64,000 nucleotides of DNA from Elusimicrobiota bacterium (lineage in GTDB: Bacteria > Elusimicrobiota > Elusimicrobia > UBA1565). The notes beneath the pieces were generated by a model. It did not search any database. It saw only the letters and a program-made list of their open reading frames with translations, and was not told the DNA's origin. Positions 3,990-45,088 of the stretch are shown here, in pieces. The stretch is from the NCBI GenBank assembly GCA_016196755.1, contig JACPXC010000004.1, positions 1-64,000 on the forward strand. Reading direction: 5' to 3'. The first letter of the stretch is position 1; every line of letters starts with the position of its first letter. A program made the translations under genes and the position numbers.

Positions 3990-4898
3990 GTGAATCTGCT
4001 GTTCTTGCTCCCCCTCCTATTCATCTTCACCCCCTGGGCCTCCCCTCCGCTGGCCCTGCTCGCGGGGATAGCCATGGCGCTTGTCTTCGGCAGCCCCTAT
4101 CCCGCCCAGGTGAAGTCCGTCACCAAGACGCTCCTCCAGGCCAGCGTGGTCGGCCTGGGCTTCGGCCTCAACCTCCATCAGGTGCTCAAAGCCGGCCTCG
4201 ACGGCTTGGCGTATACGGCGGTCGGAATCCTATTCACGATGGCCGTCGGCACCTGGCTGGGTCGGCTCCTGCGCGTGCCGGAGACGACCTCCTACCTGAT
4301 CTCGACGGGCACCGCCATCTGCGGGGGCAGCGCCATCGCCGCCGTGGGTCCGATCCTCGAAGCCGACCATGAGGAGATGTCGGTGGCGCTAGGCACCGTG
4401 TTCCTGCTCAACGCGGCGGCGCTCTTCGCCTTTCCGGCGATCGGCGCGGCCCTCGGCCTGACGCAGGAGCAGTTCGGGCTCTGGGCGGCGATGGCCATCC
4501 ACGACACCAGCTCGGTCGTGGGTGCTACCGTGAAGTATGGGGTCGGAGCCCTGGCGGTAGGCACCACCGTCAAGCTCGTGCGCGCGCTTTGGATCGTGCC
4601 GCTCTGTCTCGTCACCGCGGCCCGCCGCGCTTCCAGCGCAAAGGTGCAGTGGCCTTGGTTCATCCTCTTCTTCGTCCTGGCGGCCGCGGCCAACACCCTG
4701 CTGCCCCAGGGACGCTCGATCTATTCTCCGCTCAACGCGGCGGCAAAGGCCGGACTCATCGCCACGCTGTTTTTGGTCGGCAGCGGCATCTCGAAGGAAG
4801 CGCTCAGGAAGGTCGGCCCGCGGCCGTTGCTCCAGGGCGTCCTGCTTTGGCTGCTGGTCGCCGGCGTGTCCTTGGCGTTCGTAGCCGCACGTCCGTAG
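3990..4898 (+). CDS. YeiH-family putative sulfate exporter/transporter
   Basis: LLQASVVGLGFGLNL, TGTAICGGSAIAAVGPIL, AIHDTSSVVGA motifs of YeiH/UPF0324. Confidence 0.88.
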   Translation: MNLLFLLPLLFIFTPWASPPLALLAGIAMALVFGSPYPAQVKSVTKTLLQASVVGLGFGLNLHQVLKAGLDGLAYTAVGILFTMAVGTWLGRLLRVPETTSYLISTGTAICGGSAIAAVGPILEADHEEMSVALGTVFLLNAAALFAFPAIGAALGLTQEQFGLWAAMAIHDTSSVVGATVKYGVGALAVGTTVKLVRALWIVPLCLVTAARRASSAKVQWPWFILFFVLAAAANTLLPQGRSIYSPLNAAAKAGLIATLFLVGSGISKEALRKVGPRPLLQGVLLWLLVAGVSLAFVAARP

Positions 4899-27415: not shown

Positions 27416-28415
27416 GCTTCTGCTGGCGGCCCTGGTCCTTGCCGGCGCTCCTGTACGCGCCGACGATGGAGCCACCGCCCTGCTCGAGGAGGCCTTGGAG
27501 CCCCCCGCTACGGCCTATGAAGGAGAGCTGTCGGTGATGACGGCGCGCGGCGGGCGCCGGGAGACCCGGCATCTCCTGGTACGCTTCTCCCCCCCGGACC
27601 TCTACCGCCGCGAGACCCTGGACGCCTTGGGGACGGCCGAGCTCGTGGTGGTCTCCGACGGGAAGACCGAGTGGGTGCACGACCGGCGCAGCGGGACGGT
27701 CTGGCAGGGCCTGCCGCCGGGCCGCGAGCACGGCCTCTCGGACCCCGATGAGGAACGCGCCCTGCTGGCCGACAACTACGCCGTCCGCGTCCTGCCCGAT
27801 GCAGCCGTGGCGGGGCGCCCGTGCCGCGTCCTCGAGGTGGCTCCGCGCCGCGGCGGGCCCGTCGTCTTGCGGCTGTGGATCGACGCCGTCGAGGGGCTGG
27901 TCCTCCAGCGCGAGGCCTACGAGCCCGACGGTACCGAGTCTCTCCTGGTGCGTTTCGAGCGCGTCGCCTATGGCGCGAAGGGCCGCGCCGCGGATTTCAG
28001 GTTCCGCCCTCCCGCCGGTGCCCGCGTCGTCAAGAGCCGGCCGGCGCCGGAGGCCTTGGAGCTCGAAGAGGCGGCCAAGGCCACCGATATGAAGCCGCGC
28101 CTGGCCGCATGGGTGCCTCCGGGCTACGTCTTCGAGAGCGTCAGCCTCCTCCCGTATAAAGGCGCCACTATCCTGCACTACCGCTGGTCGGACGGCGTCG
28201 ACGTCCTCTCGCTGTTCCAGGCGCCGGCGCGGGCGCGGGTCAGGCCGCCGACCGGCGGGCGCCCGCGCAAGGAGACCGTGGCCGGCGGACCGGGCGCGTT
28301 GACGGTGCTCCCCGACGGCAAGGCCTTGGAGTGGTCCGCCGGCGACCGCTTCGTGCTGGTCGGCCGCCTCGGACTCGAGTCCCTGCGCCGCGTGGCGGAG
28401 TCGGTGCCGCGGTGA
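27405..28415 (+). CDS. RseB/MucB-like sigma-E regulatory, LolA-fold exported protein
   Basis: AYEGELSVMTARGGRRETRHLLVRFSPPDLYRRETL; position after sigma/anti-sigma pair. Confidence 0.7.
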   Translation: MSTELLLAALVLAGAPVRADDGATALLEEALEPPATAYEGELSVMTARGGRRETRHLLVRFSPPDLYRRETLDALGTAELVVVSDGKTEWVHDRRSGTVWQGLPPGREHGLSDPDEERALLADNYAVRVLPDAAVAGRPCRVLEVAPRRGGPVVLRLWIDAVEGLVLQREAYEPDGTESLLVRFERVAYGAKGRAADFRFRPPAGARVVKSRPAPEALELEEAAKATDMKPRLAAWVPPGYVFESVSLLPYKGATILHYRWSDGVDVLSLFQAPARARVRPPTGGRPRKETVAGGPGALTVLPDGKALEWSAGDRFVLVGRLGLESLRRVAESVPR

Positions 28416-29086
28416 GCGGCCTTTCGGAGCATTCGAGCTCGCGCCCCCGCGAGCGCCTGCTCGAGCGCGGCCCGGCCGTCCTCTCCGAGGCCGAGCTCCT
28501 GGCCTGCGTGCTCGGCGTCGGCGTGGCCGGCTGCGACGTCCTGGAGCTCTCGGCCGAGCTCCTGCGCCGCCATCCGGACGGCGGGCTGGCCCGCCTTTCG
28601 CCCGAGGCGCTCTCGCGCGAACGCGGCGTCGGGGCCGCGCGCGCGGCGCGGCTCTCCGCGGCGCTCGAGCTCTCGCGCCGCTGGAGCGGCGCGGACGCCG
28701 CTCGGCCCGACCCGGTCGACTCCCCTCGCCGCGCCCTGCAGGAGCTGGGCGGCATGGCCGAACTCCGCAAGGAGCACTTCGTGGCGCTCTACCTCGACGC
28801 CTGCCGGCGGCTGGTGCACCGCGAGACCGTGTCGGTAGGGACGCTGACGGCCAGTCTCGTCCATCCGCGCGAGGTGTTCGGTCCCGCCCTCGAGCGCCCC
28901 GCCGCGGCGCTGATCGTCGCCCACAACCATCCCTCGGGCGACCCCGAGCCCTCGCGCGAGGACCGCGAGACCACGCGGCGGCTCTGCGAGGCCGGCCGGA
29001 TCCTCGGCCTGCCGATCCTCGACCATCTCATCATCGCTTCGCGCGGCTTCTTCAGCTTCCGCGAACAGGGGCTCCTGGATGCGTAG
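28412..29086 (+). CDS. radC: RadC family (JAB/MPN) protein
   Basis: LSEAELLACVLGVG, HFVALYLDACRRLVHRETVSVGTL, VHPREVF, IVAHNHPSGDPEPS; GTG start overlapping the upstream stop. Confidence 0.88.
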   Translation: MSGLSEHSSSRPRERLLERGPAVLSEAELLACVLGVGVAGCDVLELSAELLRRHPDGGLARLSPEALSRERGVGAARAARLSAALELSRRWSGADAARPDPVDSPRRALQELGGMAELRKEHFVALYLDACRRLVHRETVSVGTLTASLVHPREVFGPALERPAAALIVAHNHPSGDPEPSREDRETTRRLCEAGRILGLPILDHLIIASRGFFSFREQGLLDA

Positions 29087-29093
29087 GGCGGTG
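29068..29093. repeat. Left copy of an imperfect direct repeat flanking the MuF-C-like insert
   Basis: GGGGCTCCTGGATGCGTAGGGCGGTG versus right copy GGGGCTTCTGGATGCGTGGGGCGGCG (23/26). Confidence 0.7.
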
Positions 29094-29789
29094 CAGAAGG
29101 ATGGGAAGCTTTGCGGCCAGAAGGCAGCATGGGACCGCGCTCAGTACATGAAGGATGTCGGCGACGTGTTCGCCGGCAAAAAAGACCCGGGTCGGCCGCT
29201 CTACCTCGGACCCACGCCGGTGGTGCTCCAGTTTGTCGGCGCGAAGGACTACCCCGTCGTCATGCCCGCCTCGGTGGTCACAAAGGCCAGGGAAAAGCAT
29301 TCCGTCGGAATGGAGATTTTGACGCGGGTCCCTGATTTCCTAGCCGATCCGCTGATGGTCTTCAGGTCCGATACTGAGCCAAACGCGTTGGTCGTCCTTG
29401 CTGAGATTGAAAGCGCGGGGCGCCCGGTCGTAGCTGCTCTCCACCTCGAAAGGAAGCAGTACAGCATCGACGTGAATCGAGTGGCCAGCGTTCATGCGAA
29501 AGACACGTTGGGCCAGATTCAGGACTACATCGACGAGGACCTGACGCTCTACTGGGATGAGGAAAAAGCGAAGGCCTGGCTATCTCACAGGAAGCTCAAC
29601 GCCCCCGGTCAAGCCAAGCCTTCTACAGACACGATACTCTCAAAAGCCGATTTCGTCAAGGCCCAGCCCACAGGCGTCATCCCGAAGTATGACGAAAACC
29701 TGCTGCTCGAGATGATGGACGACGAGGCGCGGGGGCTTGGGAGCGGGGTGGTGCGGGAGGCGTCAGCTTTCGCCAGCGGGGGCTTCTGG
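29079..29789 (+). CDS. MuF-C-like (phage/polymorphic-toxin associated) domain segment, open reading frame continuous with the downstream lipoprotein
   Basis: RPLYLGPTPVVLQFVGAKDYPVVMPASVVTKAREKHSVGMEILTRVPDFLADPLMVFRSDTEPNALVVLAEI...VNRVASVHAKD; lower GC than surroundings; full ORF is 29079..30581. Confidence 0.65.
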
Positions 29790-29804
29790 ATGCGTGGGGC
29801 GGCG
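29779..29804. repeat. Right copy of the imperfect direct repeat
   Basis: See left copy at 29068..29093. Confidence 0.7.
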
Positions 29805-30581
29805 GCCGCGTTGTTGCTGCTGTCGGCCTGCGGGCCGAAGGCCGACTACGGTCATGCGGTGCGCGTGGAGGCCACAGGCGACCCGCTCAAGGCGGTGGCC
29901 GCCTGGGAGGCGTTCCTCAAGGCCCACCCGCTCGACGAGCGCGGTCCGGAGGCCGCCTACCGCGTCGCCTCGCTCTACGCCGTGGCGCTCGGCCGCTGTG
30001 AGGAGGCGCGGCCGCTCTTCGAGGCGGCAGCGCGCTCGAGCGGCCCATGGACCGAGCCTGCCAAGCTCGGCGTCATGTCCTGCCCGGACTACTTTCCGCT
30101 GGCCGCGGGAGCGCGCTGGACCTTCGTCGACACGCTCAGCGGCGGCCAGAACATGCGCCTCGAGACCAAGGTCGTCGTCGCTACCGGGACTTCGGCCGGG
30201 CTCGTCAAAGGCCAGTTCTACGCAGGCGACCAGGCCTTCCGCGACTATCGCCGGCGCTACGAGAAGGCCGACTGGAGCGTCTGGGAGGAGGACGAGGGCG
30301 TGCGCTCCCCGATTCTGCGCTGGCCCTACAACAAGGGCCGCACCTGGACGGCCGAGAAGGCCCAGGGCTCGGTGACCTACACGATCGAGTCCGCCGCCGC
30401 CTCGGTCAAGGTCAAGGCCGGCTCCTATTCGGGCTGCCTCAAGGTGCGCTCCCAGGCCGCCGGCTACGACGCCTCGTGGGTGTATGATTACTACTGCCCG
30501 GGCGTCGGCCGCGTGAAGACCACCGTCGGCGTGCCGGGCGCCGAGAACCCGAACACCGAGCTGGCCGAGTTCAGACCGTGA
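29790..30581 (+). CDS. Lipoprotein with TPR-like N-terminal region
   Basis: MRGAAAALLLLSACGPKADYG lipobox from internal ATG; KAVAAWEAFLKAHPLDERGPEAAYRVASLY. Confidence 0.7.
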   Translation: MRGAAAALLLLSACGPKADYGHAVRVEATGDPLKAVAAWEAFLKAHPLDERGPEAAYRVASLYAVALGRCEEARPLFEAAARSSGPWTEPAKLGVMSCPDYFPLAAGARWTFVDTLSGGQNMRLETKVVVATGTSAGLVKGQFYAGDQAFRDYRRRYEKADWSVWEEDEGVRSPILRWPYNKGRTWTAEKAQGSVTYTIESAAASVKVKAGSYSGCLKVRSQAAGYDASWVYDYYCPGVGRVKTTVGVPGAENPNTELAEFRP

Positions 30582-42565: not shown

Positions 42566-43189
42566 TCACTTCGGCCGCAGATCGATGATCTCGTAGGACG
42601 GCGGCGGGGGTTTCTTAGGCGGCGTCTTCCTCCACCCCATCATCGCCGTTGCCGCTATCAGCAGCGCCGCCGCTCCCACCCCCGCCGCCAGCAGTCGTCT
42701 CCTGCTCGCTTTCCCTTCGGTCGCTTTCTCGAGCCGGTGGAACCTCTCCTTCTCAAATGCGAGGCAGACCGCGATGGCCATGTGCGTCTCGCTGGCCCCC
42801 TTATACGCCGTCTCGGCCCGCGTGAAGGCCACCAGGCCGGGCCCGCTGGAGCCCGGGTCGGCGAGCTGGCGCCGCCGGACCTCGGGCCCATAGGTCTCGC
42901 CGACGGACAGTTTGAGCGCCGAATATCCGCGGCGCAAGAGGAGCAGTTTCTTGTCGAGCTCCGCCAGGGCCGCCAGGGGCTCGGACCGGAGGCTTCGCGC
43001 CTGCTCGAGCGCTACGGTCTTGCCGTAGCCGCGCGGCAGCGCCGTGACCCGGTCGATGAGCGGAAGGGCTTCGTGGGCCAGGACGCGGTAGTCCTCGGAG
43101 ATCTTGTTGAGCGCGCGGACGTCGTCCTCGTAGCGGTCCGCCGAGGCCGGCGCGCAGAGTCCGAGGAGGAGGATGAGCGCCAGGCGCAT
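42566..43189 (-). CDS. EIIDLRPK-tail family protein, copy 1
   Basis: Signal peptide, helical exported region, TM AGVGAAALLIAATAMMGW, Pro-rich linker, SYEIIDLRPK end. Confidence 0.7.
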   Translation of the reverse strand: MRLALILLLGLCAPASADRYEDDVRALNKISEDYRVLAHEALPLIDRVTALPRGYGKTVALEQARSLRSEPLAALAELDKKLLLLRRGYSALKLSVGETYGPEVRRRQLADPGSSGPGLVAFTRAETAYKGASETHMAIAVCLAFEKERFHRLEKATEGKASRRRLLAAGVGAAALLIAATAMMGWRKTPPKKPPPPSYEIIDLRPK

Positions 43190-43876
43190 CTATTTCGGCC
43201 GCAGGTCGATGATCTCGTAGTCCGGGGCCGAGGGCGGCGGAGGCGGCGGGCCCGGCCTCCTTCGCGTGGCGTAGACGGCGAGCGCCGCCGCGACGAGGAG
43301 GAGCAGGGCGGCTCCCACGGCGGCCATGTTGCGCCGGAAGACCTCCGCCCGCCGGTGCTCGGCGGCGAAGCGCTTGAAGGCAACGTCCTCGCGCCCGAGG
43401 ATGTCGTCGAGCTTCAGCCGGAAGAGGCTGGCCTCCATGTCGGCCTCCTCGGAGGCTTCGAAGAAGCTGATATCCGCCCCGCCGTAGGGCGTGGTGACGG
43501 CCTCGGTGATGGCCGAGGCGCCGTGGCGGAGGAAGATCGCCGAGCGCATGTCCTCGTACTCGCCGCGCAGGCGGGTGATCTCGGCGCCGAGCTCGAGGCA
43601 GCGCGCGCGCGGGGTCTCGCGCCGGGCGGCTGCGGCGTCAATGTCCGAGCCGGGCTTATAGGATTGGCTCGCGGCGAAGAGGAGGTCGAGCAGGGGCTCG
43701 GCCTCGGCCCTGACGGCGGCGAGGCGGGTCTTGATGCGCTGCATCTCGGCCCCGTCCTCGCGCCGGACATCCTCGGGGGCGCGCGGGCTCGGCGCGGCGG
43801 AGGCGACGGCTGCCGTGAGGAACAGGGCCAAAGCCGCCCTCCCGAGCCTACTTAGGGCGCAGGTCGATGATCTCAT
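43190..43876 (-). CDS. EIIDLRPK-tail family protein, copy 2
   Basis: Same architecture; ends PPPPPPSAPDYEIIDLRPK; start uncertain. Confidence 0.7.
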   Translation of the reverse strand: MRSSTCALSRLGRAALALFLTAAVASAAPSPRAPEDVRREDGAEMQRIKTRLAAVRAEAEPLLDLLFAASQSYKPGSDIDAAAARRETPRARCLELGAEITRLRGEYEDMRSAIFLRHGASAITEAVTTPYGGADISFFEASEEADMEASLFRLKLDDILGREDVAFKRFAAEHRRAEVFRRNMAAVGAALLLLVAAALAVYATRRRPGPPPPPPSAPDYEIIDLRPK

Positions 43877-44465
43877 AAGACGGCGGACGCGGCGGCGGAG
43901 GCGGCCTCGGCGGCGGCTTGCCCGGTCTCAGCGCGAAGGCCAGGAGCAGCAGCGCGCCCACGGCCGCGGCGGCGGCTTTCGTCACCCTTGCCCTGCGTTG
44001 CCGGGACTTTTCCATGGCGCGGAACGCGGCGTCGTCGGCCTCGAGGATCCTCTCGATCATCCTGAGGACTCCGGCGGCCTCCTCTGCGGCGATCGCGGCC
44101 TTTGTGAACGCCTCGATGTTCGGGTCGCGGACCCCAGGGGTGGTGATCACGCGCGCGACGGCGACGGGGCCGTAGTGGTCCACGACCCGCGCGCGCAGGA
44201 GGGTGTAGTCGTAGCGCAGGCGGTGGAGGTCCATGGCCAGTTCCCCGAGGCGCTGGCGCAGAGGGGCGCGGCGCTCGGCGGCGCCTTTCGGGGAGGAGGC
44301 GTAGCTCCGCGTCAGCGCGCTGAGGCGGTCCTGCAGGAGCGCGGTCTCTTTCGACGCCAGCCGGTACGAGTCCCCGAGCTTTCGCGCCGCCTCGAGGTCG
44401 GACTCGGTGCCGCGCGCCAGGCCTGAGGCCGCGGCCAAGACGAGTAGGAGGGCGGGAATCGTCAT
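43848..44465 (-). CDS. EIIDLRPK-tail family protein, copy 3
   Basis: Same architecture; ends RPPPPPRPPSYEIIDLRPK. Confidence 0.7.
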   Translation of the reverse strand: MTIPALLLVLAAASGLARGTESDLEAARKLGDSYRLASKETALLQDRLSALTRSYASSPKGAAERRAPLRQRLGELAMDLHRLRYDYTLLRARVVDHYGPVAVARVITTPGVRDPNIEAFTKAAIAAEEAAGVLRMIERILEADDAAFRAMEKSRQRRARVTKAAAAAVGALLLLAFALRPGKPPPRPPPPPRPPSYEIIDLRPK

Positions 44466-45088
44466 TCGGGACGGATGTTGATGATCTCCTTGCCGCGGCG
44501 CCGGCGCCGGGCCAGCGCGGCCGCGGCGGCGTAGGCCACCCCGGCCAGGACGGCCAAGAGCGCCAGGCTCAAGGTCCAGATCGTCCGGCGGAAGGAATCT
44601 CGCTCGCGGTCGAGGTTCTTGAACGCGGACCAATCAAGCTCCTCGCGCCTTAGCTGGTCGTCGATGCCGCGGAGGAACAGCGTCGCCTGATGGGTGAAGG
44701 TCTGGGCGCGCATCGCCGCGATGAGATGCGGCGGGCTCTCCTTGGACATGCCGTTGCTGAAGGCCTCGAGGGCCTGCAGGCCGTGCTCCTCGGCGTAGCG
44801 CCCCAGGGAGCGGGTGGCGGCGTCATGATGGCCGCGCATGTCGGCGGCGCGGGCGGTGATGGCGGCCCTCAGCTCTTCGCGCCTTTTGCCCGCGCGGTCT
44901 CCGTCCTTTTCCCAGCTGTAGCCGCGGCGCAGGGACTCGAGCTGGTCGAGCAGGCGCGTGAGCTCGGACTGCGTGCGCCGGCCCTCGGCGACGGTCGCGT
45001 CGAGGGCCGCGGGGGGGGCGGTAGGCGGGGCGTCGGCGCCCGCCGCCGCGGCCCAACTCAGGAGACCGAGGATCGTCGCCCGGCCCAT
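44462..45088 (-). CDS. EIIDLRPK-tail family protein, divergent copy 4
   Basis: Same architecture; ends RRRRGKEIINIRPE. Confidence 0.65.
   Translation of the reverse strand: MGRATILGLLSWAAAAGADAPPTAPPAALDATVAEGRRTQSELTRLLDQLESLRRGYSWEKDGDRAGKRREELRAAITARAADMRGHHDAATRSLGRYAEEHGLQALEAFSNGMSKESPPHLIAAMRAQTFTHQATLFLRGIDDQLRREELDWSAFKNLDRERDSFRRTIWTLSLALLAVLAGVAYAAAAALARRRRRGKEIINIRPE

Follow-up and report, generated by a model that had tools for sequence, protein, structure and literature searches.

Results

The window, by which we mean the whole 64-kb stretch of DNA analysed, carries on its plus strand a radC gene (28412..29086) with a GTG start and a TAG stop and, downstream of it, a lipoprotein gene (29790..30581). 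Both are native to the host. RadC matches PF04002 (2e-40) and, above the cut-off, NF000642, and it shares 83% amino acid identity with RadC from a member of the same genus (locus L004 of genome G001), over the part of the gene present there. The lipoprotein has a MRGAAAALLLLSAC lipobox, which reads LLLLSAC, as well as a TPR-like part, and its gene is found in 47 of the 57 genomes included in the relatives search. Between these two genes lies a third open frame of 237 codons (29079..29789, plus strand), here termed MuF_C, whose ATG overlaps the radC stop codon and which reaches the ATG of the lipoprotein gene without encountering a stop.

This arrangement is bounded by an imperfect direct repeat (29052..29091 and 29763..29802, plus strand), which seed extension delimits to 40 bp, with 34 of 40 positions identical (85%) and a spacing of 711 bp, equal to 3 × 237. 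The 42-mers named in the original prediction lie at 29050..29091 and 29761..29802 and are, as it stated, identical at 35 of 42 positions. The repeat extends from the last radC codons, with a GGGGG run, across the overlapping ATG and TAG into the initial codons of the lipoprotein gene. Its left copy provides the 3' end of radC, the TAG stop and, overlapping the latter, the start codon (ATG) of the MuF_C frame. The right copy contains a relic of the radC 3' end and retains both the GGGGG run, which resembles a ribosome-binding site, and the ATG of the lipoprotein gene. In the radC frame, it still encodes the RadC-like end SFRQRGLLDA noted in the prediction, followed by TGG in place of the stop codon, and it is not expressed as RadC.

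The 671 bp between the two copies (29092..29762, plus strand) have a GC content of 0.60, compared to 0.72 in the flanks, in agreement with the low-GC segment originally described. Their GC content by codon position (~0.66/0.39/0.75, compared to 0.80/0.53/0.92 in radC) is typical of a protein-coding gene with an origin in lower-GC DNA. A single open reading frame fills this segment, in which neither an integrase or transposase nor terminal inverted repeats are present, and an Rfam search returned no match.

Among the direct repeats of the 64-kb window, the one at the radC/lipoprotein junction ranks third, and the two repeats ranked above it belong to one family, formed by three tandem paralogues with a common protein tail. 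When the 4.59-Mb genome was searched for the 24-bp repeat core with up to three mismatches permitted, just these two places were found, and a reversed control pattern gave no match. No other insert bounded by short repeats and showing a comparable drop in GC content was detected in the 788 kb of the genome that were scanned. A candidate second event in the same genome (contig C37, 92378-93445) was dropped, because the bioA-like fragment beside its right copy identifies it as the remnant of a tandem duplication.

Several other features were observed along the way. The three tandem paralogues (window 42566-44633, minus strand) are small genes whose products contain a signal peptide, one membrane segment and a proline-rich stretch; their bodies have diverged, and their C-terminal tails are identical (YEIIDLRPK), which suggests a common partner or a sorting signal. 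The tandem-duplication remnant on contig C37 (L111, 12009-13524) consists of a 203-bp repeat (88%) of the 3' end of a gene for a 211-aa protein, with low-GC DNA between its copies; an orphan, HicB-looking open reading frame in this low-GC DNA was assigned to no family by Pfam or NCBIfam.

The junction is empty in a close relative and was duplicated in this lineage

A single-copy empty site in a relative had been set beforehand as the test of an insertion, and such a site is indeed present in G001. There, radC ends at position 764 and the lipoprotein gene starts at position 757 of L004, so that the two genes overlap (ATGCGTAG) in a single copy of the junction (...GGGGGCTCCTCGATGCGTAG...), and the 671-bp segment is missing. 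In a further relative, G002, the two genes lie ~30 bp apart, again with no insert between them. The prediction would have been contradicted by the presence of the segment in all relatives; however, MuF_C was found in none of the 56 other genomes of the relatives sample, which leaves the genome of the window (G000) as its sole carrier, and a search of 235 genomes of the class uncovered no further carrier in its order. The empty site and the restriction of MuF_C to G000 within the order thus show that the segment is an insertion whose ancestral state is known.

The repeat copies also reveal where the duplicated sequence came from. They agree with one another and differ from G001 at five sites. 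At three of these, all located past the radC stop in the sequence of the lipoprotein start, they also differ from G002. When the six differences between the copies are polarised, the left copy accounts for two changes and the right one for four, among them the loss of the radC stop (TAG to TGG). As the copies share states that are missing from the sister species, the duplication took place in this lineage and used the junction of the host itself, and no imported foreign radC end is needed to account for it. The original proposal of a duplicated radC 3' end is supported, except that radC does not make up the whole extent of the repeat: the duplicated unit is the junction of radC stop and lipoprotein start.

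The inserted frame encodes a phage-type MuF_C domain

The protein encoded by the inserted frame, which had been predicted to resemble the C-terminal domain of phage MuF proteins, contains a PF18819 (MuF_C) domain (E=6.9e-24; 84.4 bits, against a curated cut-off of 27.6) at residues 68-165 (29280..29573, plus strand). This is the sole Pfam domain found in the open reading frame, which thus lacks a DNA homing endonuclease domain. Residues 19-194 match phrog_616, a large family of phage proteins, and the closest relatives correspond to internal regions of large phage and prophage proteins, with identities of 37% for Escherichia phage PhiR5_2, 32% for Stx-converting phages and 37-40% for prophage-like loci in Yersinia and Serratia; plasmid proteins are also among the relatives. 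Scans of viral contigs recovered no relative with the single protein and two with a two-row alignment. PADLOC and NCBIfam gave no match for this open reading frame, and a PDB sequence search with the protein returned nothing.

A predicted structural model (mean pLDDT 71.6) comprises a helix at residues 64-74, which ends in H74 (29298-29300), and strands at residues 93-96, 103-112, 115-125 and 130-138, the last of which contains S137 (29487-29489). Both residues are invariant across the alignments and form the predicted catalytic pair. The BECR fold has been described as an N-terminal helix followed by four or five strands, with a histidine in the helix and a serine or threonine in strand 4 (PMC5512222), and the predicted model fits this description of the core, making the protein a predicted RNase. 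Polyvalent proteins and the MuF C-terminal domain ranked among the best matches in a search of predicted viral structures, and a fold search of the PDB gave no significant hit, to a BECR protein or otherwise, with weak RelE/ParE-like ones far down. A search of 296 genomes of the phylum for PBECR4 (PF18813) yielded no match.

The closest known system is the PBECR/MuF-C domain of phage polyvalent proteins (Iyer et al., 2017, PMC5512222; PF18819; phrog_616). Unlike its phage counterparts, the domain described here stands alone between two chromosomal housekeeping genes, is open in frame into the lipoprotein gene, and has no phage, delivery-domain or immunity gene alongside. The MuF polymorphic toxins of temperate phages (PMC5576092) share with it the theme of a phage origin combined with a toxin-type C-terminal domain, but here an N-terminal MuF domain and a small downstream immunity gene are lacking: the open reading frame holds MuF_C alone, and the next gene is the conserved native lipoprotein gene. 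Of the suggested phage or polymorphic-toxin-type domain, the phage-type part is thus supported by Pfam, phrog_616 and the viral structures, whereas 'polymorphic toxin' is a less precise label than the one favoured by the evidence, namely a PBECR (MuF_C) domain of phage polyvalent proteins.

The foreign frame has remained open

The frame starting at 29079 is open through 30581 (500 codons), with MuF_C running into the lipoprotein. As there is no stop before the lipoprotein, a fusion protein may be made beside the restarted lipoprotein. The MuF_C frame has no stop in 223 codons, compared to three to nine in each of the five other frames. If the change in the right copy (4/40, or 10%) is taken as neutral, the chance of a 711-nt frame with this composition staying open is ~0.22 when substitutions only are considered and falls to 0.02-0.002 with indels included, the lower value applying to indels at 10% of substitutions. 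Few sites stand behind this estimate, so that the open frame can do no more than hint at selection. It is tempting to speculate that MuF_C has been kept as a working or attenuated version of the predicted RNase. Since the divergence of the copies rests on six sites, arguments on age and selection are soft.

Stand-alone MuF_C genes occur at six chromosomal sites in the phylum

Most MuF_C domains of the phylum are embedded in frames of 700-3100 codons. Stand-alone genes were identified at six chromosomal sites in five genomes (G000, G148, G211 and G212, with one site each, and G184 with two), and clear repeats are present at two of these sites, leaving four without a clear repeat. The second clear case is found in G212 (locus L064 on contig C83, minus strand), where the gene is bracketed by an 82-bp direct repeat (95%) that occurs in just two places in that genome and whose left copy corresponds to the 3' end and stop codon of a radical SAM gene. 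G212 is not a close relative of G000, and its MuF_C domain and that of the window are not sisters in the tree, so such an event has happened at least twice.

The stand-alone gene of G148 lies 5 nt after pcrA, but its repeat is gapped and borderline, so this site was not counted. The site on contig C85 of G184 was likewise left out, as its 30-bp repeat (90%) consists of AT-rich intergenic DNA and is weak; the gene itself is broken by a MITE-like insert of ~0.28 kb (L094, minus-strand coordinates 4215-4495) with the terminal inverted repeats GGGCGTGTTCACA...TGTGTGAACACGCCC. In G211, the stand-alone gene has an ABC transporter gene on one side and yajQ on the other. A strong repeat flanks tex in this genome (L067 on contig C50, minus-strand coordinates ~750 and 3060), but it proved to be a dispersed intergenic repeat and involves no insertion. 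Intergenic repeats of G211 can thus look like the footprints of insertions.

Discussion

On balance, the radC/lipoprotein locus probably reflects the capture of a single gene of phage-type DNA at the overlap of the two genes, with duplication of the ~40-bp junction by end joining. End joining is, in our assessment, the most likely of the mechanisms considered. A double-strand break with protruding ends would have arisen at the overlap between the end of radC and the beginning of the lipoprotein gene, and its ends may then have been joined to a passing phage fragment of ~0.67 kb that encoded one MuF_C (PBECR) RNase domain. If the protruding strands were filled in before joining, a direct repeat of host sequence would result on both sides of the foreign DNA. 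In the arrangement seen today, the left copy supplies the normal end of radC, together with an ATG for the foreign frame at the lipoprotein's old place, and the right copy retains the signals from which the lipoprotein gene starts, its ribosome-binding run and its ATG, such that both host genes stay usable, with the MuF_C frame between them in the transcription unit. Tolerated insertions would be those that keep both the radC end and the lipoprotein start; such a filter would explain the precise position of the insert, so that no target preference is needed.

The machinery for such an event is encoded in the genome, which contains adjacent genes for Ku and LigD (L101 6291-9480, contig C38), the latter with 3'-phosphoesterase, ligase and Prim-Pol domains. 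A search of nine relatives did not recover Ku. However, a link between Ku-LigD and the insertion comes down to one genome and one event. In addition, 40-80 nt would have to be filled in, which is a long stretch by the standards of end joining in bacteria. In mammalian cells, it is known that a break with protruding ends can leave a second copy of the protruding segment once its ends are joined (PMC5730883). These tandem duplications resemble the present case in their direct repeat of the protruding segment and their dependence on end joining, for which the host here possesses Ku-LigD, but differ from it in that they are mammalian; here, ~0.67 kb of phage-type DNA separates the copies. The 82-bp repeat in G212, finally, suggests something less accidental than random capture.

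One such process could be site-specific integration. The repeats may conceivably represent the attL and attR sites of a small integrative element targeting gene 3' ends, with the 711-bp unit being minimal or cut down and the integrase supplied from elsewhere, although we consider this scenario unlikely. Two genomes do contain imperfect direct repeats at gene 3' ends, one of 40 bp and one of 82 bp, reminiscent of elements such as SGI1, which integrates at the 3' end of trmE (PMC8409611); the left copy restores radC, and the empty site carries a single copy of the repeat, as it would for such an element. However, genes for an integrase or any other element function are missing from the insert, the target sites at radC and at the radical SAM gene have no obvious common core, and the copies share host-lineage states even in the lipoprotein start, which is unexpected for a copy of a foreign attP site.

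Homologous recombination with a very close relative that already carried the insertion, with the left and right copies derived from different strains, would explain the 15% divergence of the copies without great age. Consistent with this idea, the identity of radC to that of G001 is highest towards the 3' end. However, the same rise is seen relative to G002 and fits the conserved JAB domain, and recombination would merely shift the first insertion to an unsampled relative. We therefore regard this explanation as rather improbable.

A similar gene order is known from fungal mitochondria, where mORF hybrids, such as those of atp6 in Allomyces and Glomus (PMC3630166), have a nuclease-type open reading frame in phase at the 3' end of a gene, whose C-terminal end is duplicated on the far side. 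The present locus shows the same sequence of gene, duplicated C-terminal end, in-phase nuclease open reading frame and old C-terminal end, with a duplicated gene end beyond the open reading frame at both the radC locus and the G212 site. Stand-alone MuF_C genes could thus move in a similar manner, with the encoded nuclease or a break that it provokes driving insertion at gene ends and leaving a duplicated gene end behind, in line with the six chromosomal sites in five genomes, two of them with clear repeats. This mechanism appears very unlikely, though, because mORFs encode LAGLIDADG or GIY-YIG DNA endonucleases, whereas MuF_C has the predicted core of a metal-independent RNase (PMC5512222). 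Moreover, the imported C-terminal end is foreign in mORFs, but both copies are of host lineage here; the window and G212 domains are not sisters in the tree, and four of the six sites have no clear repeat. A more general notion, which we hold with considerable doubt, is that each stand-alone MuF_C gene acts on bacterial chromosomes as a mobile unit in its own right, inserting at gene ends with gene-end duplications of 30-80 bp and carrying a predicted RNase as cargo, and is thus a bacterial counterpart of mORFs.

An artefact of assembly or binning, finally, is barely credible, since, even though the genome comprises 67 contigs with an estimated contamination of 2.7% and may thus be a metagenome bin, the insert lies within a 166-kb contig between conserved neighbours that are native to the host, each of its joints carries a diverged copy of the repeat, and a chimaeric join would not double 40 bp with six differences.

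While the domain family is known, its stand-alone insertion into a chromosome with a duplicated stop/start junction is new, as is the second repeat-bracketed case at an unrelated site of another genome. The locus provides a before-and-after view of a single phage effector domain that has left a giant phage protein and settled between two working chromosomal genes, neither of which was broken because their stop/start overlap was doubled. It also raises the question of what role a predicted RNase domain with no visible antidote may play if it is translated within a housekeeping transcription unit. The parallel with the 82-bp repeat in G212 indicates that the case described here is not unique and instead belongs to a testable class.
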